Shown in pieces: positions 4,910 through 49,596 of a stretch of DNA of 64,000 bases. A model generated the notes under the pieces. It saw only the letters and a list, made by a program, of their open reading frames with translations. It did no database searches and was not told the DNA's origin. Each line of letters begins with the position of its first letter. The stretch's first letter is position 1. The position numbers and the translations under genes were made by a program. The stretch comes from Flexilinea flocculi (GTDB lineage: Bacteria; Chloroflexota; Anaerolineae; Anaerolineales; Anaerolineaceae): positions 394,311 to 458,310 of the forward strand of contig NZ_DF968179.1 of NCBI RefSeq assembly GCF_001192795.1. Reading direction: 5' to 3'.

Positions 4910-5031
4910 CAGCGATTCGAAAAACAAGGTGATTTTTTTGACGTTAATTGGTTATTCACAAAGTATGACATCAACCTTTCGCCAAAATTTCTCTTTTTTT
5001 ATCCAAAAACTATCAATACTTCGAATTGCTG
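4910..5031. mobile_element. MITE-like palindromic element
   Basis: Runs from CAGCGATTCGAA to TTCGAATTGCTG, terminal inverted repeats matching the family described at 27199-28830. The flanking 9-mers ATTTCAGTT and ACTTCAAAT agree at 6 of 9 positions, so any target duplication is eroded. It lies between the diguanylate cyclase operon and a second element. Confidence 0.7.
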
Positions 5032-5081: not shown

Positions 5082-5217
5082 CAGTAATTCGAATTATGAG
5101 AAGAGTTCGAAATATTGTGCTTTTCGAATAGAGAGAAAATTTATTGTTCTTATGGTTTTGCGCGAAGCGCAAAACCATAAGAACAATATAGAATTCATTT
5201 CATATTTCGGATTGCTG
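5082..5217. mobile_element. MITE-like element with perfect 21-bp hairpin core
   Basis: Terminal motifs are CAGTAATTCGAATTATG and CATATTTCGGATTGCTG. The centre is a perfect 21-bp inverted repeat (5143-5163 with 5167-5187) around a GAA loop, closing with TGCGC/GCGCA. No protein is encoded. No clear flanking duplication is seen; the left end seems to sit in another degenerate copy (CAGCGATT at 5074). Confidence 0.8.
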
Positions 5218-13620: not shown

Positions 13621-13679
13621 CAGCGATTCGTAATAATTTTCTTTTTTCTCAAATGGCTTTTCCAAAATTCGAATTATTG
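13621..13679. mobile_element. Minimal MITE with perfect 9-bp target duplication
   Basis: A 59-bp element from CAGCGATTCG to CGAATTATTG. It is flanked on both sides by the identical 9-mer GTCGCAATT (13612-13620 and 13680-13688). It retains the arm GGCTTTTCCAAAATTCGAA shared with larger copies and lacks the central hairpin. The rest of the 350-bp gap between the giant gene and the next gene is AT-rich with nothing else recognisable. Confidence 0.88.
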
Positions 13680-17831: not shown

Positions 17832-17955
17832 CAGCGATTCGAAATTTGGCAAAAATCATTTGAGAAATAAGAGAAAAATGGTTATTGTTTCGTTTTTGCG
17901 TTCCGAGTAGAAACGAAACAACTACCAATAATCCTTCATATCATTCGAATCGCTG
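17832..17955. mobile_element. MITE with near-perfect 9-bp target duplication
   Basis: Ends are CAGCGATTCGAAATTTG and CATTCGAATCGCTG. Flanks are TTTGAATAA (17823-17831) and TTTGAATGA (17956-17964), 8 of 9 identical. The interior has the shared TTTGAGAAATAAGAGAAAAA arm and a hairpin TTGTTTCGTTT/AAACGAAACAA. It lies in the ~220-bp spacer between the aminotransferase and acetyltransferase genes, splitting what is probably one operon. Confidence 0.88.
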
Positions 17956-19193: not shown

Positions 19194-19356
19194 CAGCGAT
19201 TCGAAATATAAAAAACGATTTTGGATAACCCATCCGCAGTATGTAGGCTAAAGACATAATTTCGAAAAAGAGATATAGAAAAATGAGCTGATCGATCAGT
19301 TTATAGAAGTACAACAATTAACTGACAAGTAATCTGGTTTGAATCAGGTGTAATGT
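19194..19356. other. Intergenic region with a MITE end
   Basis: The gap holds a single left end of the MITE family at 19194-19212 (CAGCGATTCGAAATAT). No matching right end is seen. The remainder up to the next gene has no recognisable feature. Confidence 0.55.
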
Positions 19357-21009
19357 CTATAAAACTAACTCTTTTGACAAAAAGTTGTACTTATAAATTT
19401 CCAGAATAGACACATCATTCACTCTTATTTCAAAAACGGGATCAAGTTTGGACAAACACTCCAAAGCAATTGGATCATAAAAACTAGGTCGCGTAATAAA
19501 CATAATATAGACTGATTTACCTTTGTTTATTGAACCAGCTATTTGAGGGGCATCAATGACTTCAATATCATCCCTAAGCCATATGGAGTCAACCAGTTTT
19601 ACAATGTGATCACCAACGGCAACATAAAGCTTTGAATCACGATCAGCATTCTTAGATAACCATTTAAGCCCTTTGCGATATGAGCTTCCCCAATAATCTG
19701 TGGCTTCATCTGCGCCAAATTTTTCTTTTCCACCTGCCAAACCGCCGCAGATTTTGTTGAAGTAGATATATTGATAGGATCCAAATTCTTTTATGATGAA
19801 TGCTGTATTAATGGTTGTGAGTAGAAACAGGCTAATTCCTGAAGCAATGACTGTTTTTTTATTTTGTTTGCCAATAAGATTAATGATTGATGCGGCCCCC
19901 ATTCCTGCAAGCAATGCGGCCGCTGGAACAAATTCAAGAAAATGACGAATCCCATCAAAATTGACAGAAGAAAAAATTGAGTTCCGAATAATTGGAACTA
20001 AGAACCAAATTAACGCTAATCTATAAGCAATTTCCTTCTTCTTCCTTATTTGGATGATGGAAAAATATAAACCAATCACCAAACATAAAAGCATAATCTC
20101 AGGAATAACAGCGATGGTTATGGAAAGTGGCTGCCAATTCCAGATAATTGAGGCTGAAGTTGTTCCACGAGAGAAGATATATGAGAAATAGTTTTTTACA
20201 TTTGAAGGGTTTGAATATAAATATGGCCAGGAAAGAAAATAGGTGATCAATCCACTTGCCAGCATTAATATGTATTGAAAATATCGGGTTTTTATGTGAT
20301 TCCACATTGCTTTAGGAGCAATTGGCCAAAATCCTAAGATGAATGTTACTGGAAGGAATAATGCGTTTGCTTTTACCCCCAGAGCAACGCCGCCAGCCAG
20401 GCCAACCAAAACAGCTCGTTTCCAAGACGGATTTTCATACCAAACCCAGAACGCAAGCAGAGCAAATCCAAAAAACACCATTTCTGGAATGTCTTTTACA
20501 TTGAAATGCATATCTCCCCACAAACGAGGAAAAGTACCCATAAAGAGGATGGAAAATAAACCTACCCATTTTCCGAGACGTTTTGAGATAAAAAAATAGA
20601 ATACAACTAGGAAAGAACTAACAAGCAAAATCGGGAACAGATGGAATGCGTCGATGGGATCCAGCCATTTCAACTTGTAACTAAAAACATACATGGTGGC
20701 GGCAGAAGCCGTATCAGCCAATGCTGGGAATTGATGAGGGATGCCACGACAAGGCGATTTAAATAAGTCAAGTTGGTGGTTTTTATGCATCGATAAATAC
20801 TCATCAAAGCGTAAATAATTTGGGTCAAAACTTGAAAAATAATGCAGGTATCTTTCACCAAAAAAGAGATTTCCCAAGCTTTCATCCCAGGTTGCGCCAT
20901 ATTGTGTAAGAGTTGAAATTCCGCTCAAACAGAACACTAGAATGAATAAAATAGCAATGAAGTCAACAAGGAATTTTGTTGATAAGATTCTGTTTCTAAA
21001 TTGTGCCAT
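19357..21009 (-). CDS. GT39-family membrane glycosyltransferase
   Basis: A 550-residue protein with an N-terminal helix followed by an external loop carrying GATWDESLGN (~36-45), the acidic GT-C motif, and LWGDMHFNVKDIPEM (~163-177), a second motif of PMT-like enzymes. About ten more membrane helices follow, then a soluble ~120-residue C-terminus. It is predicted to use a polyprenyl-phosphate-linked sugar outside the membrane. It is AT-rich compared with the GT39 gene at 15546. ATG 21009 is preceded by GGAGGC. It is transcribed alone. The acceptor is unknown; the neighbouring surface-sugar genes suggest glycan or glycoprotein assembly. Confidence 0.8.
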   Translation of the reverse strand: MAQFRNRILSTKFLVDFIAILFILVFCLSGISTLTQYGATWDESLGNLFFGERYLHYFSSFDPNYLRFDEYLSMHKNHQLDLFKSPCRGIPHQFPALADTASAATMYVFSYKLKWLDPIDAFHLFPILLVSSFLVVFYFFISKRLGKWVGLFSILFMGTFPRLWGDMHFNVKDIPEMVFFGFALLAFWVWYENPSWKRAVLVGLAGGVALGVKANALFLPVTFILGFWPIAPKAMWNHIKTRYFQYILMLASGLITYFLSWPYLYSNPSNVKNYFSYIFSRGTTSASIIWNWQPLSITIAVIPEIMLLCLVIGLYFSIIQIRKKKEIAYRLALIWFLVPIIRNSIFSSVNFDGIRHFLEFVPAAALLAGMGAASIINLIGKQNKKTVIASGISLFLLTTINTAFIIKEFGSYQYIYFNKICGGLAGGKEKFGADEATDYWGSSYRKGLKWLSKNADRDSKLYVAVGDHIVKLVDSIWLRDDIEVIDAPQIAGSINKGKSVYIMFITRPSFYDPIALECLSKLDPVFEIRVNDVSILEIYKYNFLSKELVL

Positions 21010-21206
21010 TTTGCCTCCACCAAAAAAACTTTAGTGTTGTGTTTTTTTAAACCTAAGTTTCACGTCTGATGATTTTTGCCAACATATTCACCCCAGAAGG
21101 GTGATAGGTATGGCTGATCACACATAAGTTTAGCATCACATCCTCCATTGTCCAGCGATTTTTGTGATCCAATTCATAACACAATAGGACATTTCTAAAA
21201 TGCCTT

Positions 21207-21252
21207 GACATCGAAATATAAAAAAGAATTGTTGTTGTGGTGTTTTTTGCAT
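21207..21252. repeat. MITE left-half remnant
   Basis: ATCGAAATATAAAAAAGAAT followed by TTGTTGTTGTGGTGTTTTTTG matches the left arm and inner-hairpin arm of the MITE family. The right half is missing. Confidence 0.55.
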
Positions 21253-24261: not shown

Positions 24262-25624
24262 AGCGAGAAAAGATTGCTTCGCCCTTACAGAATGATCGGA
24301 AAGACAGATTGTCATGGGAGCTACTAGACGCTCTATTTGTCATTGCGAACTTGTGAGTCCTATAGGGGCGAGCCCCACAGGGGTGTAATTTGTCATTGCG
24401 AGCCCTGCAAGGGCGAAGCAATCTCCCTGCCACACAAAAGAATGATTGCCATGCGAATAAAGATTGCCACGTCGGGCTGACGCCCTCCTCGCAATGACAG
24501 ATTGCCAAGCGAGCCCCGTATGGACGACGTTTGTCATTTCGAACTTGTGAGTCCTGTAGGGACGAGCCCTGCAAGGGCGAAGCAATCTCCTGACTTGTGA
24601 GGAAAGATTGCTTTGTCGGGCTGACGCCCTCCTCGCAATGACAGATTGTCGGACTGACGCCCTCCACACAATGACAGATTGGTGTGCGTCCCGCACGGTG
24701 TCGGCGTTTGACATTGCGACCGTAGCGATATTTGTCATTGCGAGCCCTGCAAGGGCAAAGCAATCTCCTTATAAATGAGGAAAAGATTGCCATGCGAAAA
24801 AAGATTGCTTCGTCGGGCTGACGCCCTCCACACAATGACAGATCGGTATGTGTCCCGCACAGTGTCGGCGTTTGTCATTGCGACCGTAGCGATATTTGTC
24901 ATTGCGAGCCCCACAGAGGCGTGGCAATCTCCCCGCCACACAAAAGAATGATTGCCATGCGAATAAAGATTGCTTCGTCGGGCTAATTCCCTCCTCGCAA
25001 TGACAGATTGCAAAGCGAGCCCCGTATGGACGACGTTTGTCATTGCGAACTTGTGAGTCCTGTAGGGACGAGCCCTGCAAGGGCGAAGCAATCTCCTGAC
25101 TTGTGAGAAAAGATTTCTTCGTCGGGCTAATTCCCTTCTCGTAATGACAGATTGCAAAGCGAGCCCCGTATGGACGACGTTTGTCATTGCGAACTTGTGA
25201 GTCCTGTAGGGACGAGCCCTGCAAGGGCGAAGCAATCTCCCCGCCACACAAAAGAATGATTGCCATGCGAATAAAGATTGCTTCGTCGGGTTTATACCCT
25301 CCTCGCAATGACAGATCGGTATGTTTCCCGTACAGTGTCGGCGTTTGTCATTGCGACAGTAGCGATATTTGTCATTGCGAGCCCTGCAAGGGCGTGGCAA
25401 TCTCCCTGCCACACAAAAGAATGATTGCCATGCGAATAAAGATTGCTTCGTCGGGTTTATACCCTCCTCGCAATGACAGATTACCAAGCGAGCCCCGTAT
25501 GGACGACGTTTGTCATTGCGAACTTGTGAGTCCTGTAGGGACGAGCCCTGTAAGGGAGAAGCAATCTCCTCACATGTGAGAAAAGATTGCTTCGTCGGGC
25601 TTATTCCCTTCTCGTAATGACAGA
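24262..25624. repeat. Array of GTCATTGCGAG-type interspersed repeats (array A)
   Basis: About ten nested or tandem units of ~120-190 bp. A typical unit starts TTTGTCATTGCGAGCCCTG, contains GGGCGAAGCAATCTCC and AAAGATTGCTTCGTCGGG, and ends CCTCCTCGCAATGACAGA. The ends are inverted repeats (GTCATTGCGAG/CTCGCAATGAC). Long open frames across it (CHCEEG..., SVIARR...) are translations of the repeat in several frames and are not genes. This family is widespread in unrelated bacterial genomes. A ~390-bp stretch (about 24620-25010) is duplicated in array B. Confidence 0.9.
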
Positions 25625-25636
25625 TCAATCCCTGAA

Positions 25637-25924
25637 TTATTCATCATATAAATCTTTCCACTCCGGATTGATGCTATTAATCAAATCGATTTTCTTCTTA
25701 CGCGATCCCGCTTTAATTTGTTTCTCACGAGAAATCGCTGCGTAAACATCACTACTGGTCTCAAAATATACCAGTTTCGTCAAATGGTACTTGGATGTAA
25801 AGTAGCTCCCTTTTCCTGATTTGTGTTCTATTACTCTACGCTGTATGTTGTTCGTTACACCTATGTAAAGGACGGTGTTGTGGGAATTGGTCATGATGTA
25901 CACGTAGTATTCCTTCTCTTTCAT
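25637..25924 (-). CDS. Small GIY-YIG nuclease family protein
   Basis: A 95-residue single-domain GIY-YIG protein. YYVYIMTNS (6-14) and LYIGVTNN (19-26) are the two halves of the GIY...YIG motif, followed by Arg29/Arg30, Glu33-His34 and a Lys/Arg-rich helix REKQIKAGSRKKK. The C-terminus INPEWKDLYDE is typical of the short UvrC-like subgroup. ATG 25924 follows TAGGAGAG. Such proteins are predicted metal-dependent DNA endonucleases. The gene sits between two arrays of GTCATTGCGAG repeats, with only ~12 bp between its stop and array A. That suggests it belongs to the repeat system (inference). Confidence 0.88.
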   Translation of the reverse strand: MKEKEYYVYIMTNSHNTVLYIGVTNNIQRRVIEHKSGKGSYFTSKYHLTKLVYFETSSDVYAAISREKQIKAGSRKKKIDLINSINPEWKDLYDE

Positions 25925-25957
25925 ACAATCTCTCCTATCTGTTGTTGCAAATCCCCA

Positions 25958-27150
25958 CAAGGGCGCTGTTTGTCATTGGGAGCCCTGCAAGGGCGAAGCA
26001 ATCTCCTGATAAATGAGGAAAAGATTGCCACGCGAGGAAAGATTGCTTTGTCGGGCTGACGCCCTCCTCGCAATGACAGATTGTCGGACTGACGCCCTCC
26101 ACACAATGACAGATTGGTGTGCGTCCCGCACGGTGTCGGCGTTTGACATTGCGACCGTAGCGATATTTGTCATTGCGAGCCCTGCAAGGACAAAGCAATC
26201 TCCTTATAAATGAGGAAAAGATTGCCATGCGAAAAAAGATTGCTTCGTCGGGCTGACGCCCTCCACACAATGACAGATCGGTATGTGTCCCGCACAGTGT
26301 CGGCGTTTGTCATTGCGACCGTAGCGATATTTGTCATTGCGAGCCCCACAGAGGCGTGGCAATCTCCCCGCCACACAAAAGAATGATTGCCATGCGAATA
26401 AAGATTGCTTCGTCGGGCTAATTCCCTCCTCGCAATGACAGATTGTCTGACTGACCCTCCACATAATGACAGATCGGTATGTGTCCCGCACAGTGTCGGC
26501 GTTTGTCATTGCGACCGTAGCGATATTTGTCATTGCGAGCCCTGCAAGGGCGAAGCAATCTCCTGATAAATGAGGAAAAGATTGCCATGCGAATAAAGAT
26601 TGCCACGTCGGGCTGGCGCCCTCCTCGCAATGACAGATTGTCGGACTGACGCCCTCCACACAATGACAGATTGGTGTGCGTCCCGCACGGTGTCGGCGTT
26701 TGCCATTGCGACCTTAGCGATATTTGTCATTGCGAGCCCTGCAAGGGCGAAGCAATCTCCTGATAAATGAGGAAAAGATTGCCACGCGAGGAAAGATTGC
26801 TTTGTCGGGCTGGCGCCCTCCTCGCAATGACAGATTGTCGGACTGACGCCCTCCACACAATGACAGATTGGTGTGCGTCCCGCACGGTGTCGGCGTTTGC
26901 CATTGCGACCTTAGCGATATTTGTCATTGCGAACCCTGCAAGGGCGAAGCAATCTCCTTATAAATGAGGAAAAGATTGCCATGCGAAAAAAGATTGCTTC
27001 GTCGGGCTGACGCCCTCCTCGCAATGACAGATCGCCGTGCCAATCCTTGTAAGGGCGAAGCAATTCCATGGTACATAAGAAAAGATTGCTTCTCCCCTTC
27101 AGAATGATCGTAATGACAGATTATCAGGCTAATGTCCTTCTCGCAAGGAA
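25958..27150. repeat. Array of GTCATTGCGAG-type interspersed repeats (array B)
   Basis: The same family and unit structure as array A, on the other side of the GIY-YIG gene. About 26052-26443 is almost identical to ~24620-25010. A second internal near-duplication links ~26530-26730 and ~26720-26930, both with GATAAATGAGGAAAAGATTG and GTGTGCGTCCCGCACGGTG. No genes are present. The array ends just before the IS. Confidence 0.9.
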
Positions 27151-27326
27151 ACCGTACTAACAACAATTTTCCACCCTTTATGAATCGCTGCATTCTGTCA
27201 GCAATTCGAAATATGAGAATTTGAAGAGGCGAATAAATGTTGACTAAAAACATTAATGACTTTTAACTTAATTAATGATGATCAAGATATTACATAAGAG
27301 GTGTATAGGATGAATATAATGGAGGA

Positions 27327-28667
27327 ATGGAAAAGCGCCTGATCAAAGTCTCAGAAATGATCCATATTTTGTATAACCAGTTTGCAAAAGTAAGGGATGT
27401 GCGAACTGGGAAAAACACACAATATGAAATGAGTGATGCGATCATGGGGGCATTTGCCATATTTCATATGCAAAGTCCATCCTTTTTGAATGGGCAGAAA
27501 CAATTACAGGAAAAATTGGAACAAAACAATGCGGAAACGTTGTATGAAATCCGTCAGATACCAACGGACACACACATCCGCAACCTGTTGGATCCGCTCG
27601 ATCCAAAAGAAAACATGGGATGCTTCAAAGAAATCATAGACCGGCTGGCAACAAATGGCTATTTGGATGAAATGCGGGGATATGATGAGAAGCTGCTGAT
27701 AGCAGTGGATGGAAGCCAATATCATGAATCGCATAAAATAAGCTGTGCAAAATGCAATACGCGGGTCAAAGATGACAAGATTGATTATTATCATGTAATT
27801 CTGGCACCGGCAATAGTCCAAGCGAATCAGAAGGAAATACTTCCAATCGAACCAGAGTTTTTGGAACCGCAAGATGGACATGACAAACAGGACAGTGAAT
27901 TAGCCGCTTTTTACAGATGGTTGACAAGCTATGGGAAAAGATACGCGCGATATGGAGCAATTCTTCTGGGAGATGATCTGTATTGTAACGAACCGGCCTG
28001 CAGGAAGATGCTGAAAGCGGGATTTCACTTCATCCTGACGTGCAAACCGACCTCGCATGAATTTATGGCAGGGACAAGACAGTTTCTGGAAAACATACCC
28101 AATCAGGAGTTGGTGCGCAGCGTCAGTAAACGTATTTGGACCGGAAGACGAGGTGTCATCCATCAATTCCGCTATATCAATGATTTACCGCTCAAAATGG
28201 ATAAAAATCCACTGACAGTCAACTGGTGCGAATACACAGAAACCGATGAAAAAAGCGGAGAATGTCTGTATCGGAATGAGTTTGCAACCGACTATCGAAT
28301 CACAGATAAAAACGTCGAGAATATTGCTTTGTCCGGAAGAAACCGATGGGACATTGAAAACTCCGGTTTCAATGTATTGAAGAAACGGGGATTTCATTTT
28401 GAACATAATTTTGGACATGGGGAACAAAATTTGTCTACAGTTTTGGCAACGTTGAATTTGCTTTCGTTCCTGGTACACAACACCTGCAAACTGACCGATG
28501 TTGTCTATGCATATATTCGGAACAAATCGGATACAAATTCGCAATATTTCGAAAGAGTACGCGTTCTGACGGAAGTCTTTGTTTTTGAAGATTGGGACAA
28601 ATTGTTTGAATTGCTAAAATATCGACTTGAGCATGGTCGTATATCGATTTCTGAATTTTTAAATTAA
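27327..28667 (+). CDS. DDE transposase (IS4-like/ISNCY-type)
   Basis: A 446-residue transposase. The putative catalytic triad is Asp128 in IAVDGSQYH, Asp216/217 in LLGDDLYC and Glu344 in NRWDIENSGFN, the last in the YREK-like position of IS4-superfamily enzymes. A CxxC (Cys140, Cys143) follows the first Asp. The N-terminal ~100 residues resemble the usual DNA-binding region. It is full length with no frameshift, so the element could be active. GGAGG lies almost directly against ATG 27327, unusually close, so the exact start is uncertain. The IS family name is not certain. Confidence 0.85.
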   Translation: MEKRLIKVSEMIHILYNQFAKVRDVRTGKNTQYEMSDAIMGAFAIFHMQSPSFLNGQKQLQEKLEQNNAETLYEIRQIPTDTHIRNLLDPLDPKENMGCFKEIIDRLATNGYLDEMRGYDEKLLIAVDGSQYHESHKISCAKCNTRVKDDKIDYYHVILAPAIVQANQKEILPIEPEFLEPQDGHDKQDSELAAFYRWLTSYGKRYARYGAILLGDDLYCNEPACRKMLKAGFHFILTCKPTSHEFMAGTRQFLENIPNQELVRSVSKRIWTGRRGVIHQFRYINDLPLKMDKNPLTVNWCEYTETDEKSGECLYRNEFATDYRITDKNVENIALSGRNRWDIENSGFNVLKKRGFHFEHNFGHGEQNLSTVLATLNLLSFLVHNTCKLTDVVYAYIRNKSDTNSQYFERVRVLTEVFVFEDWDKLFELLKYRLEHGRISISEFLN

Positions 28668-28677
28668 CCTATTTGGG

Positions 28678-28713
28678 GAGTAATGCGCCTATTTTTAAAA
28701 CATTACTCTTTTT
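28678..28713 (+). terminator. Terminator of the transposase gene
   Basis: GAGTAATG (28678-28685) pairs with CATTACTC (28701-28708) and is followed by T5. It starts 10 bp after the transposase stop, inside the IS. Confidence 0.8.
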
Positions 28714-28903
28714 GCATACCTGTTATCTGAATATCCCTCATAATTTCCTTCTTTTTGCCTCCAGAATTCGCTATTGATTGGCCTGATTTCAATATTCTTC
28801 TGCCCTCTGTTTTCATTTTTCGAATTACTGGCATTCTGTCAGTTTGTTTTACGGTAAAATAAAGGCTTAATATGGTTAATTTTTTCAGATACCGAAGGTT
28901 CTT

Positions 28904-30271
28904 ATGATGAATACTGCAAAGAATTATCATCGGATCGTCCTGTTTTTTGTGACGCTGAGTGTATTGCTGGCAGTGTGTGTTGTCCCCACAGCAGCAGAAA
29001 GATCGCTCTTCCAGAAAAACGACGGAGTGGTCGATCTGTATTTTTTTCATGGCGACGGCTGCCCGCATTGTGCGGAGGAAGAAGTATTTCTGGATGAAAT
29101 GAAACAGACGTATGGCGAAAAGCTCGCCATTCATATGTATGAAGTCTGGAAACATCCCGAGAACATTCCTGTCATTGAAAAATTCGCACAAGCCTTCCTG
29201 TTTGAACCCAGCGGCGTGCCGGTGACCTTTATCGGGCGGCAGTACTGGGTCGGCTACAGCCCGGAAAAACGGGATGCCATGAAGGCGGCAATTGAAGACG
29301 GCATAGCGCACGGCATGGTGGATGCGCAGGACATCGCGGATGGCAAAGTCAGCCTGGAGGTGCCGCAGACAGATCAGATCACAACAATTCAGGTCCCGCT
29401 GATCGGAACGGTCGATTTGGCAAGCCGCTCGCTTTTTGTCAGTACCGTGCTGATCGGTCTGGTGGATGGCATCAATCCGTGTTCCTTATGGGTACTGACG
29501 ATGCTCCTCGCCATGCTGGTGCACCTGAATTCTCGGAAAAAGACGATCCTGATCGGTCTTATTTTTCTGACCGTCACGGCAGGCATCTATGCTTTGTTCA
29601 TCACCGGTGTTTTCACGCTGCTGACCTATGTCAGTTTCCTGAAATGGATCCAGATTGTTGTGGCGGTCATCACGCTGATTTTGGGGCTGATCAACCTGAA
29701 GGATTACTTTTTCTATAAAGAAGGCATTTCACTGACGATCCAGGATTCGCAGAAACCCGGCATCTACCAGAAAATGCGCAAAGTCATGAGCTCCAGCGAA
29801 AATCTGTGGGCGATGATCGGTGCGACTGTGGTGCTGGCCGCCGGCGTATCCCTGGTGGAATTCTCTTGCACGGCTGCTTTCCCGGTCGTCTGGGGTAACC
29901 TGCTGGTGGCGCATGGCGCGTCCCGGATGGAATTTGCCGTACTGTTGCTGTTATATATGCTGCTGTATCAATTGGATGAGATGATCATTTTCCTGGCGGC
30001 TGTCATCACGATGAAAACCAGCCGCATCGAAGAAAAACACGGACGGATACTCAAGCTGTTCAGCGGCTGTCTGATGATCACGCTTTCGACGGTCATGATC
30101 CTCAGCCCGGAATGGATGCAGAATCTCGGAAATACGTTGCTGGTGTTTGGTTTTGCAGTGGCAATCACGCTGCTGATTTTTCTGCTCACGAAAAATATCC
30201 TGCCGGGAATGGATGACAAAACGCATAAGCGTTCCACTAAAGGCAATTCGTCCAAAAAGACGCGAAAGTAG
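28904..30271 (+). CDS. Thioredoxin-like domain fused to CcdA/DsbD-type thiol transporter
   Basis: A 455-residue protein. A signal peptide (~10-31) is followed by an external glutaredoxin/thioredoxin-like domain (~42-140) with redox motif GCPHC (Cys53, Cys56) and a cis-Pro region SGVPVTF. A six- to eight-helix membrane domain follows, with INPCS and EFSCTAAFP supplying the two cysteines expected in CcdA/DsbD transporters. It would pass electrons from cytoplasmic thioredoxin across the membrane to oxidised proteins outside. ATG 28904 follows GAAGG. The C-terminus is Lys/Arg-rich. The stop codon TAG is the first three bases of an inserted MITE (see 30269-30351), so the present C-terminus may not be the original one. 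Confidence 0.85.
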   Translation: MMNTAKNYHRIVLFFVTLSVLLAVCVVPTAAERSLFQKNDGVVDLYFFHGDGCPHCAEEEVFLDEMKQTYGEKLAIHMYEVWKHPENIPVIEKFAQAFLFEPSGVPVTFIGRQYWVGYSPEKRDAMKAAIEDGIAHGMVDAQDIADGKVSLEVPQTDQITTIQVPLIGTVDLASRSLFVSTVLIGLVDGINPCSLWVLTMLLAMLVHLNSRKKTILIGLIFLTVTAGIYALFITGVFTLLTYVSFLKWIQIVVAVITLILGLINLKDYFFYKEGISLTIQDSQKPGIYQKMRKVMSSSENLWAMIGATVVLAAGVSLVEFSCTAAFPVVWGNLLVAHGASRMEFAVLLLLYMLLYQLDEMIIFLAAVITMKTSRIEEKHGRILKLFSGCLMITLSTVMILSPEWMQNLGNTLLVFGFAVAITLLIFLLTKNILPGMDDKTHKRSTKGNSSKKTRK

Positions 30272-30351
30272 TAATTCGAAATTCGGAAAAGCCCTTTGAG
30301 AAAAGAGAGAGATCTGGTCGTTGTGTTGTTTTTCCATATTTGGAATTGATG
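30269..30351. mobile_element. MITE supplying a gene's stop codon, near-perfect 9-bp target duplication
   Basis: Ends are TAGTAATTCGAAATTCGG and CCATATTTGGAATTGATG. Flanks are ACGCGAAAG (30260-30268) and ACGCGAAAA (30352-30360), 8 of 9 identical. It keeps AAAAGCCCTTTGAGAAAAGA and one inner arm (GTTGTGTTGTTTTT) but lacks the matching second arm. Confidence 0.88.
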
Positions 30352-33097: not shown

Positions 33098-33207
33098 GCA
33101 AAATATGGAAGTCATGATAAAAATAATCCAGAAACGATTCGAATTATGTGAGGGATTATTTGTTGTTGTGTTGTTTTTGTTCGGAGCCGGTAATTTGAAA
33201 TAAAGAC

Positions 33208-33310
33208 TTGCTATTCGGATAACGAGGAAAAACTTGTTATTGTGAAGTGTTTGCGCTTCGCGCAAACACTTCACAATAACAAAAAATTCTCCTTATAGTT
33301 CGATTTGCTG
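33208..33310. mobile_element. MITE-like element with perfect 23-bp hairpin
   Basis: The ends resemble the family (TTGCTATTCGGATAACG and AGTTCGATTTGCTG). The core is a perfect 23-bp inverted repeat (33234-33256 with 33260-33282) around a TTC loop closing TTGCGC/GCGCAA. It lies between the divergent cobS and cobT genes; a further partial copy with a GATTCGAATTATG end occupies ~33130-33200. Confidence 0.78.
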
Positions 33311-33317
33311 GCTTAAA

Positions 33318-33385
33318 GCGCAAAGCAACACAATAACAAGTTTTCTCTTTTTTCTCAAAAGGCTTTTCCAAATTTCGAATTGCTG
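33318..33385. mobile_element. MITE right half
   Basis: GCGCAAAGCAACACAATAAC, then TTTTTTCTCAAAAGGCTTTT and the end CAAATTTCGAATTGCTG. The left half is missing or replaced by the element at 33208. It ends 35 bp before the cobT start. Confidence 0.75.
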
Positions 33386-36583: not shown

Positions 36584-36706
36584 CAGCAATTCTAAATATG
36601 GAAAGGAATAATTGTTGATGTGTTGTTTTTGCACGAAGCGCAAAAACAACACATCAACACGATCTCCCTTTTTTCTCAAGAGGCTTTTCCAAATTTCGAA
36701 ATATTT
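36584..36706. mobile_element. MITE with near-perfect 9-bp target duplication
   Basis: The left end is CAGCAATTCTAAATATGG and the right arm ends CCAAATTTCGAAATATTT. Flanks are TCAAAAAAT (36575-36583) and TCAGAAAAT (36707-36715), 8 of 9 identical. The core hairpin TTGATGTGTTGTTTTTGC pairs with GCAAAAACAACACATCAA allowing for one base. Confidence 0.85.
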
Positions 36707-39285: not shown

Positions 39286-39348
39286 ATCTACTTGCCCCTG
39301 TTTTCTCAAAAGGGTTTTCCAAAATTCGAGTTATTGGGATGAAACATG

Positions 39349-39880
39349 TCATTGCGAGCCCTGCAAGGGCGTGGCAATCTCCTAAACAATGTGCAAAGTG
39401 AGCCACACGAAACAAGATTGCTTCGTCGGGCTGACGCCCTCCTCGCAATGACATATCAGTAATAAGTGGTGATATATACGAAATGAATTGATAAGCAGTC
39501 AAATGGAAGGGATGAAACCTGTCATTGTGAGTCTCATATGGACTTATTTGTCATTGCGAGCCCTGCAAGGGCGTGGCAATCTCCTAAACAATGTGCAAAG
39601 TGTGCCACACAAAACAAGATTGCTTTGTCGGGCTGACGCCCTCCTCGCAATGACAAATCAGTAATAAATGGTGATATATACGAAATGAATTGATAAGCAG
39701 TCAAATGGAAGTGATGAAACCTGTCATTGTGAGTCCCGTATGGACTTATTTGTCATTGCGAGCCCTGCAAGGGCGTGGCAATCTCCTAAACAATGTGCAA
39801 AGTGTGCCACACAAAACAAGATTGCTTTGTCGGGCTGACGCCCTCCTCGCAATGACATATCAATTTATGAATCATTCATC
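39349..39880. repeat. 202-bp tandem repeat containing GTCATTGCGAG units
   Basis: TCATTGCGAGCCCTGCAAGG recurs at 39349, 39551 and 39753, exactly 202 bp apart. Each period holds a ~120-bp interspersed repeat plus a ~80-bp linker (AGTAATAA..TGGTGATATATACG..., GATAAGCAGTCAAATGGAAG). The third copy is truncated. No gene is encoded. Confidence 0.92.
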
Positions 39881-48429: not shown

Positions 48430-48464
48430 TAGCTGCCTCCTTAATCCGAGAAGGGTAGATGTAA

Positions 48465-48600
48465 TATGCTGAGGCAGGCTTCCTGACTTGTCAAACGGAC
48501 TGACTTACAGTTGCGGTACAGCGCTGGACTCTCACCAGCTTCCACCTTTATGCCCTGGCTTCCGTGCCTGCGGGTCACCTCAACTGCTTTCATTATAAAT
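48465..48600 (-). promoter_or_regulatory. Cobalamin riboswitch controlling cobO
   Basis: On the minus strand, GAGGTGACCCGCAGGCACGG leads to AGCTGGTGAGAGTCCAGCGC, then TGTACCGCAACTGTAAGTC and the B12-box-like AGTCAGGAAGCCTGCC. This is the conserved core of the cobalamin riboswitch in correct order. CTGCCTC right after the box (48471-48477) is complementary to GAGGCAG overlapping the AAGGAGG ribosome-binding site (48433-48439). Ligand-dependent masking of translation is therefore likely (inference). Confidence 0.92.
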
Positions 48601-48627
48601 CATTTTCCGATTGTGCCGAACTTTTGC

Positions 48628-49120
48628 CAGCAATTCGAAATATGGAAATAATCATTGTTGTTGTGGTTTTTTCGTGCTTTATTTTAAAGATTGATAGGAT
48701 GAATAATTCATGGACTCATATGTCATTGCGAGGAAGGCGTCAGCCCGACGAAGCAATCTCTTTTCACATGACACACTTTCCATAATGTGGAAGGGAGATT
48801 GCCACGCCCTTGCAGGGCTCGTCCCTACAGGACTCACAAGTTCGCAATGACAAATAGAGCGCCTATGTGGTTCCCATGACAATATGTCATTGCGAGGAGG
48901 GCGTCAGCCCGACGAAGCAATCTCTTTTCACATGACACACTTTCCATAATGTGGCAGAGAGATTGCCACGACCCTACAGGGTAATAACAATGACAGGCTT
49001 CATCCTAATAATTCGAAATTTTAAAAAAAGACTTTTGAGAAAACAGCGAAAATTTGCTTCTGCGTTTTTTTTCATCGCATCAAACAAAAACCATTCCATA
49101 AATTTTGAAATATGAATCAT
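48628..49120. repeat. Intergenic repeats: MITE halves and two GTCATTGCGAG units
   Basis: A MITE left half begins at 48628 (CAGCAATTCGAAATATGG, with a TTGTTGTTGTGGTTTTTTCG arm). Inverted-orientation interspersed-repeat units lie at ~48721-48852 and ~48884-48990. An old MITE spans ~49006-49115 (TAATAATTCGAAATTTTA to AATTTTGAAATATG). From 49120 to 49465 nothing is recognisable. Confidence 0.75.
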
Positions 49121-49474: not shown

Positions 49475-49596
49475 CAGCCATTCAAAAAATGAACCTGCTT
49501 TTCAAATCGAGTTAGGAAACTTATCGTTGTGCCGTTTTGCGTTTCGCAAATAAACAACACAACGATGGATAAATATTTCCACATTTTGAATTGCTG
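49475..49596. mobile_element. MITE-like element upstream of the cas locus
   Basis: Ends are CAGCCATTCAAAAAATGA and CATTTTGAATTGCTG. Flanks ATCTCAATC (49466-49474) and ATCGCAAAC (49597-49605) agree at 7 of 9. The core is an imperfect hairpin, CGTTGTG...TTTTGCG-TTT-CGCAAA...CACAACG. Confidence 0.75.

Follow-up and report, generated by a model that had tools for sequence, protein, structure and literature searches.

The window analysed here, a 64,000-nucleotide stretch of the Flexilinea flocculi genome, contains an insertion sequence (IS) and several small non-coding elements with the same ends. A reading of the sequence alone had interpreted these as an autonomous transposon mobilising a large family of palindromic MITEs. 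The locus therefore raises two questions: did this IS move the MITEs, and what keeps the hairpin at their centre paired? We are confident of the overall answer, in which an autonomous IS and the MITEs would share one system of end recognition, the MITEs would mostly have been moved by earlier members of the IS group and the core would be kept paired by a process likely acting on DNA.

The insertion sequence and its transposase group

The IS spans 27199-28830 (1,632 bp). Its 18-bp ends, CAGCAATTCGAAATATGA and CAGTAATTCGAAAAATGA, are alike at 16 of 18 positions and form the left (27199-27216, forward strand) and right (28813-28830, reverse strand) terminal inverted repeats, both recovered as terminus matches. 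The identical 9-mer GCATTCTGT lies on each side (27190-27198 and 28831-28839), so that the sequence-only description of a 1,632-bp IS with shared ends and identical flanking 9-mers is confirmed. The right flank is followed by CAG, as found at the start of the IS, so that this copy, taken by itself, would also allow a 12-bp repeat; it is taken as 9 bp because the other copies settle on that length. The orthologous site in a second genome of the genus (G010) is uninterrupted and has one copy of the target 9-mer, 8/9 identical. A check for other full copies with the same ends, suggested by the same reading, found the IS to be single copy in its own genome. The present IS looks like a recent single insertion.

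An unrelated multicopy IS of about 1.63 kb, with a frame of 517-518 amino acids, was observed in genome G000 as head-to-tail pairs 1,625-1,628 bp apart (C2:595085-597051, C3:89129-91095, C3:1354503-1356466, C3:2260187-2262153 and C3:2286427-2288393). These pairs are either tandem dimers or a scaffolding artefact.

The 446-residue DDE transposase is encoded at 27327-28667 on the forward strand. Pfam DDE_Tnp_1_assoc and DDE_Tnp_1 both match it below their cut-offs (for the IS4-like DDE_Tnp_1, PF01609, 19.2 bits against a cut-off of 23), and among four relatives only L059 passes the PF01609 cut-off (24.1 bits). D128, D216, E344 and a CxxC motif are invariant across six transposase proteins; other acidic columns are invariant too, and from this conservation the three residues are the probable catalytic triad. 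NCBIfam IS families gave no match to the window protein at E values up to 10, and the four relatives matched NCBIfam models only far below cut-offs. The predicted structure has a mean pLDDT of 39, and a search of solved structures with the sequence, alone and with a profile, returned no convincing relative. A scan of viral contigs found nothing and one of genome contigs found three fragments or distant relatives.

Plasmid relatives of the transposase comprise 14 records at 27-43% identity, nine of them cyanobacterial and one annotated as ISNCY. Ends beginning CAGCAATT together with a 9/9 duplication occur in 6 of 13 relatives: five in a set of 11 (L059, L060, L061, L062 and L065, the first two being copies of one IS in a single Calothrix strain) and one in a set of two (L111). 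L063 has CAGCAATT ends with a duplication of 3/9. No such ends with a duplication were found in the other six (L010, L064, L066, L067, L068 and L108); among these, L068 has a 15/18 inverted pair beginning CAGCGGTT with 3/9 flanks, and L066 a 17/18 inverted pair of other sequence with 1/9 flanks. The relatives with CAGCAATT ends and 9-bp duplications are found in cyanobacteria, a gammaproteobacterium and another genome of the phylum of the window. Thus, at least part of the transposase group is associated with this start of the ends and with 9-bp duplications.

Copies flanked by duplications in several bacteria, and the uninterrupted site in a congener, show the 1,632-bp element to be an autonomous DDE IS. 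Its group has been little described, has ends beginning CAGCAATT and generates target duplications of 9 bp. The group is compactly defined by these two features, and no NCBIfam model names it.

The MITE family and the question of what moved it

Within the window, 22 terminus matches (at most 3 mismatches) were found against 0.42 expected. Five of 17 short (<250 bp) inverted terminus pairs have flanks at least 7/9 identical; 32 displaced-flank controls on the 17 pairs gave a mean of 0.06 and a maximum of 1. The positions and 9-mer matches previously given for five small elements proved exact: a 59-bp element without the hairpin core at 13621-13679 (9/9, GTCGCAATT), a 124-bp MITE at 17832-17955 (8/9), an 83-bp element at 30269-30351 (8/9), a 123-bp MITE on the forward strand at 36584-36706 (8/9; hairpin 36613-36659, 21/22 pairs) and a 122-bp MITE at 49475-49596 (7/9). 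Two further MITEs lie at 4910-5031 (122 bp, duplication 6/9) and 5082-5217 (136 bp, perfect hairpin 5142-5188, duplication decayed below 6/9). The interval 33132-33385 is a MITE within a MITE (254-123-9=122). The core of the 122-bp outer element (duplication 8/9) is interrupted by a 123-bp inner element on the reverse strand at 33188-33310, which has a perfect hairpin with 22-bp arms (33235-33281) and a duplication of its own of only 5/9.

Other features of the window were noted in passing. A cobalamin riboswitch (48456-48597) adjoins a MITE terminus at 48628 (region 48456-48645). Some 2 kb at 19194-21229, with a 550-residue membrane-protein reading frame, is missing from the syntenic G010 site; it begins at a MITE-like terminus, and no matching right end or duplication was seen by eye. 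A repeat about 200 bp long (gtcgggctgacgccctcctcgcaatgaca), dispersed and in part tandem, occurs at 24388-27032, 39347-39860 and 48686-48981, and in G010 too.

The search with these ends through the whole genome and relatives, as the sequence-only reading had recommended, revealed a large family. The 3.51-Mb own genome has 592 terminus matches (at most 2 mismatches) and the reversed pattern 1; G010 has 552, G003 110 and G008 12. Reversed-pattern controls in the three congeners with 592, 552 and 110 gave 0-1. The other ten congeners have at most 3 termini each, and G028, of another genus, has 34. A covariance-model search of 41 genomes gave at least 87 matches in G000, at least 87 in G010, 82 in G003 and 23 in G008, with 1 in G002, 1 in G019, 7 weak ones in G049 and none in the other 34. 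Of the 30 loci viewed in G028, four (L160, L165, L166 and L169) hold distinct elements of 276-647 bp whose ends are of the CAGCAATTCTCAATATGA type and whose duplications match at 8-9/9; two other pairs have 2-3/9 flanks.

The claim that the small elements share 9-bp duplications above chance is borne out by displaced-flank controls and by a scan of repeat lengths. In 464 kb of the own genome, window included, 26 of 175 pairs have flanks at least 7/9 identical (control mean 0.78, maximum 5), as do 75 of 287 in 815 kb of G010 (control mean 1.22, maximum 4). When lengths of 3-13 are compared the flank repeat is raised at length 9 only, where mean identity is 0.52 (own, n=101) and 0.60 (G010, n=87) against 0.25-0.33 at other lengths. 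The duplicated 9-mer is AT-rich at most positions. Unique elements of up to 260 bp with a duplication of at least 7/9 number 27 in the own 464 kb and 75 in the G010 815 kb, with 17 and 50, respectively, in the 120-129 bp class and smaller classes at about 70 bp and, in G010, 55 bp. They lie inside a reading frame in 2 of 27 (own) and 9 of 75 (G010) cases, compared with 1,534 of 2,000 (0.77) and 1,584 of 2,000 (0.79) random sites. Duplications of 9/9 are found in 6 of 27 own elements versus 28 of 75 in G010, and the own copies therefore look older.

The left end of the IS matches the MITE consensus at 18 of 18 positions. Among the ends compared, the inner half GAAATATGA is common only to the window IS and its MITEs. 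The likeness extends over about 18-21 bp only, which rejects the MITE as a simple internal deletion of the IS. "Palindromic" holds for the terminal inverted repeats and the central hairpin; the subterminal parts are unlike each other. Longer inverted pairs (250-4,000 bp) have flanks at least 7/9 identical in 4 of 856 own and 6 of 1,245 G010 cases. Of the own four, the IS accounts for one and the nested MITE for another; judging from their longest open frames only, we take the remaining longer bounded pairs to be chance.

Empty sites were sought in relatives, again following the earlier suggestion, and G010 is uninterrupted at the sites of the IS and of one MITE (36584-36706), the latter read by eye from the flanks since the aligner had placed the right flank inside the element. 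Most own/G010 intergenic comparisons are too diverged or changed to call empty sites. The small elements are thus short, of high copy number and represented by an empty site, and have the ends and duplication length of an IS in the same genome, as expected of MITEs. The IS group is real, and a MITE family is partnered with it.

Given the like ends, the same duplication length, the empty site and the nested insertion, we infer that the same end-recognition system inserted the MITEs. Alternatively, the likeness of the ends would be coincidental or convergent, and the MITEs would go with a transposase from another family. No copy of the window transposase was detected in G010, where the MITEs are fresher, and that genome does have one incomplete DDE transposase at a contig start (L113), unrelated and without similarity to the window protein. 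However, the 18/18 match extends past the CAGCAATTC start common to distant relatives, the IS and the MITEs make the same 9-bp duplication, and G010, G003 and G008 gave no hit in a search with DDE_Tnp_1_assoc; we regard convergence as very improbable.

Shared recognition does not make this particular IS the mobiliser. The transposase has no match at E values up to 0.001 in 13 congeneric genomes, largely drafts, and none was found in the MITE carriers G010, G003 and G008 (drafts of 80-95% completeness) or in G028. Matches occur in 3 of the 61 genomes covered; a broader sample of the phylum gave 4 of 400, and both counts include the own genome. Because the IS is single copy, its G010 site is uninterrupted, congeners have no match and G010 nevertheless has 552 termini, this IS is unlikely to have moved most of the MITEs. 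G010 has about as many and fresher MITEs without a detected copy of this transposase, and the IS is therefore a survivor or newcomer and not the main source. The proposal of an autonomous transposon mobilising a MITE family thus stands as to the shared ends, the 9-bp duplications, the large family and the transposase group, and is not supported, as worded, as to this IS being the mobiliser. Most MITEs were probably moved by earlier members of the IS group, now lost or undetected, which would have had the same end specificity.

Maintenance of the hairpin core

The 123-bp elements contain an off-centre hairpin, with a 3-base loop and a stem of some 22 bp, which gives the element an orientation. 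Folding of four chosen examples as DNA gave z-scores of -6.4 to -9.3. In an alignment of 54 elements (A1) both sides vary in 18 of 22 pairs, and the covariation score is 0.347 versus 0.014-0.085 when slid; the pairing percentage in A1 is biased, because elements were chosen with at most 2 mismatches in 20. A further set of 72 G010 elements was chosen independently of the core, taking for each the centre with most pairs. Perfect 22-bp arms are present in 31 of the 72, with 22 distinct sequences separated by at least 29 compensated changes over a minimum spanning tree, and in 4 of 37 elements of the own genome. Compensated pairs number 23 in G010 against 0.14 expected from the uncompensated rate (31/34 elements) and 24 in the own genome against 1.20 (15/20 elements), counted against four subfamily consensus arms that we set ourselves, with poor-core elements dropped and inherited changes counted repeatedly. 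In each genome they are spread over 13 different columns.

Such complementarity could be mere inheritance from a few master copies, with no process of maintenance, and core types do partly track subterminal types in our reading of A1. The 29 or more compensated changes that connect the 22 distinct perfect arms argue against this, as does a further perfect core type in G003, where elements were mostly picked by the hairpin-including model; we consider it improbable. Of 12 G003 pieces (11 picked by that model and one by terminus), seven have perfect cores, mostly of a type of their own, and eight have a duplication at or above 7/9; neither feature is present in the piece picked by terminus. Maintenance of pairing is thus preferred: in the 123-bp class the central hairpin would stay paired in the mobile pool while its sequence drifts.

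Once inserted, an element appears to lose its hairpin at about the same pace as its duplication. For elements with a duplication of at least 6/9, mismatch per bp in core and duplication is 0.065 and 0.090 (G010) and 0.212 and 0.194 (own); at 7/9 or better it is 0.076 and 0.074 (G010) and 0.251 and 0.111 (own). The comparison is rough, the duplication figure being held down by the identity cut-off. Host repair of hairpins after insertion is not supported, as core mismatch roughly equals duplication mismatch. Since cores decay after insertion, maintenance or selection must be slow or must operate chiefly in the transposing pool.

The loops bear on whether maintenance acts on DNA or RNA. In G010 the outer loop positions are both purine or both pyrimidine in 59 of 62 loops (28 purine, 31 pyrimidine), and reverse-complementary loops are both represented (GAA 14, TTC 10; AAA 8, TTT 8; TCT 3, AGA 2; TCC 7, GGA 2). 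Among the 122 closest element pairs, which come from 60 elements and so are not independent, 22 have exactly inverted loops, 18 have identical loops and 82 have loops that differ. A statistic of reverse-complement symmetry is 432 versus 156 (sd 17.5; 0/2000 shuffles), an overstated difference because shuffling also breaks the link between the outer positions. Near-equal loop orientations are easier to reconcile with a process at the DNA level than with a stranded RNA.

Selection for a transcribed RNA structure that acts on neighbouring genes would also give strong covariation of the arms, and the elements lie mostly outside genes, where hairpins could affect mRNA as described for other bacterial repeats in the accessible part of PMC2229807. 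We nonetheless hold this to be unlikely, as the G010 loops occur in both orientations, unlike rRNA loops, which the available text of PMC8794818 describes as strongly one-sided, enriched many-fold in one orientation, and as inserted cores and their duplications decay at about equal rates. The co-variation of the arms and the inversion of the loops point to DNA-level maintenance more than to a stranded RNA function.

A DNA-level effect is most likely, and this may be arm-to-arm copying by template switching, better transposition of copies with perfect hairpins, or both. In the portion of PMC8794818 available, template switching is proposed to fix stems and invert loops, and its role in keeping short RNA stems is called less clear. 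We suggest, tentatively, that template switching of DNA (or cruciform resolution) in the mobile pool could by itself keep the cores, without selection on RNA. If so, the compensated arm changes and inverted loops of 3 bases in each copy are a record of template switching, and the family provides a large collection of nearly neutral replicate hairpins, spread over three or more species of a single genus. The mutation spectrum also differs (compensated changes, 10 transitions and 19 transversions; uncompensated, 36 and 8; Fisher p=6e-5); this is not relied on, because it comes mostly from GCGC columns, outside which the uncompensated changes are 10 and 6.

The co-varying, loop-inverting core amounts to a large natural hairpin series in which the duplication serves as an age stamp. 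Such a series could provide a direct test of template switching against selection as the cause of perfect long stems, and the natural MITE copies could serve for studying how DNA hairpins stay intact.

Relation to known mobile elements

REPIN/RAYT systems are characterised by a RAYT tyrosine transposase and are not known to make a target duplication. The MITE family, with its 9-bp duplications, lies outside them; compensatory hairpin changes are a property in common and not membership. REPINs, too, occur as hundreds of small elements outside genes, with compensatory changes in their hairpins, according to the available text of PMC3116915, which describes RAYT tyrosine transposases, in contrast to the terminal inverted repeats, 9-bp duplications and DDE transposase of the present family. 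Compensatory hairpins in small mobile repeats were thus already known, as far as that text goes (PMC3116915).

IS-partnered MITEs with 9-bp duplications were also known, from what is accessible of the report on Acinetobacter MITEAba12 and ISAba12 (PMC6382973). MITEAba12 is likewise a 111-114-bp MITE with the ends of a resident IS, 9-bp duplications and AT-rich targets. It differs in its 16-bp GGCTTTGTTGCAC-type ends and in its copy number, 90 over many genomes with no more than 22 in any; a co-varying hairpin core is not mentioned in the text available (PMC6382973). The combination of an IS-partnered MITE with a compensatory hairpin and loop inversion was not found in print, and the sequence-only remark that no description of this family was known agrees with the literature searched, most subscription journals and ISfinder being outside its scope.

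ERIC, Correia/NEMIS and RUP are likewise bacterial MITEs of 100-200 bp with stem-loops but are tabulated, in the part of PMC2229807 available, with TA at their termini. Nezha, with an ISNpu3-like element in cyanobacteria, is again a MITE with a proposed partner IS in the available text of PMC3049150, and resembles the present family in that partnership.

Close parallels to the IS are those on plasmids of Gloeothece PCC 7822 (annotated ISNCY), Calothrix PCC 7716, Anabaena PCC 7122 and Nostoc CCNP1411, which have transposases 37-40% identical and CAGCAATT ends. The Calothrix, Anabaena and Nostoc copies have 9/9 duplications, as does the window IS, and these cyanobacterial ISs differ from it in the inner half of the ends, which reads TCATTTTGA instead of GAAATATGA.
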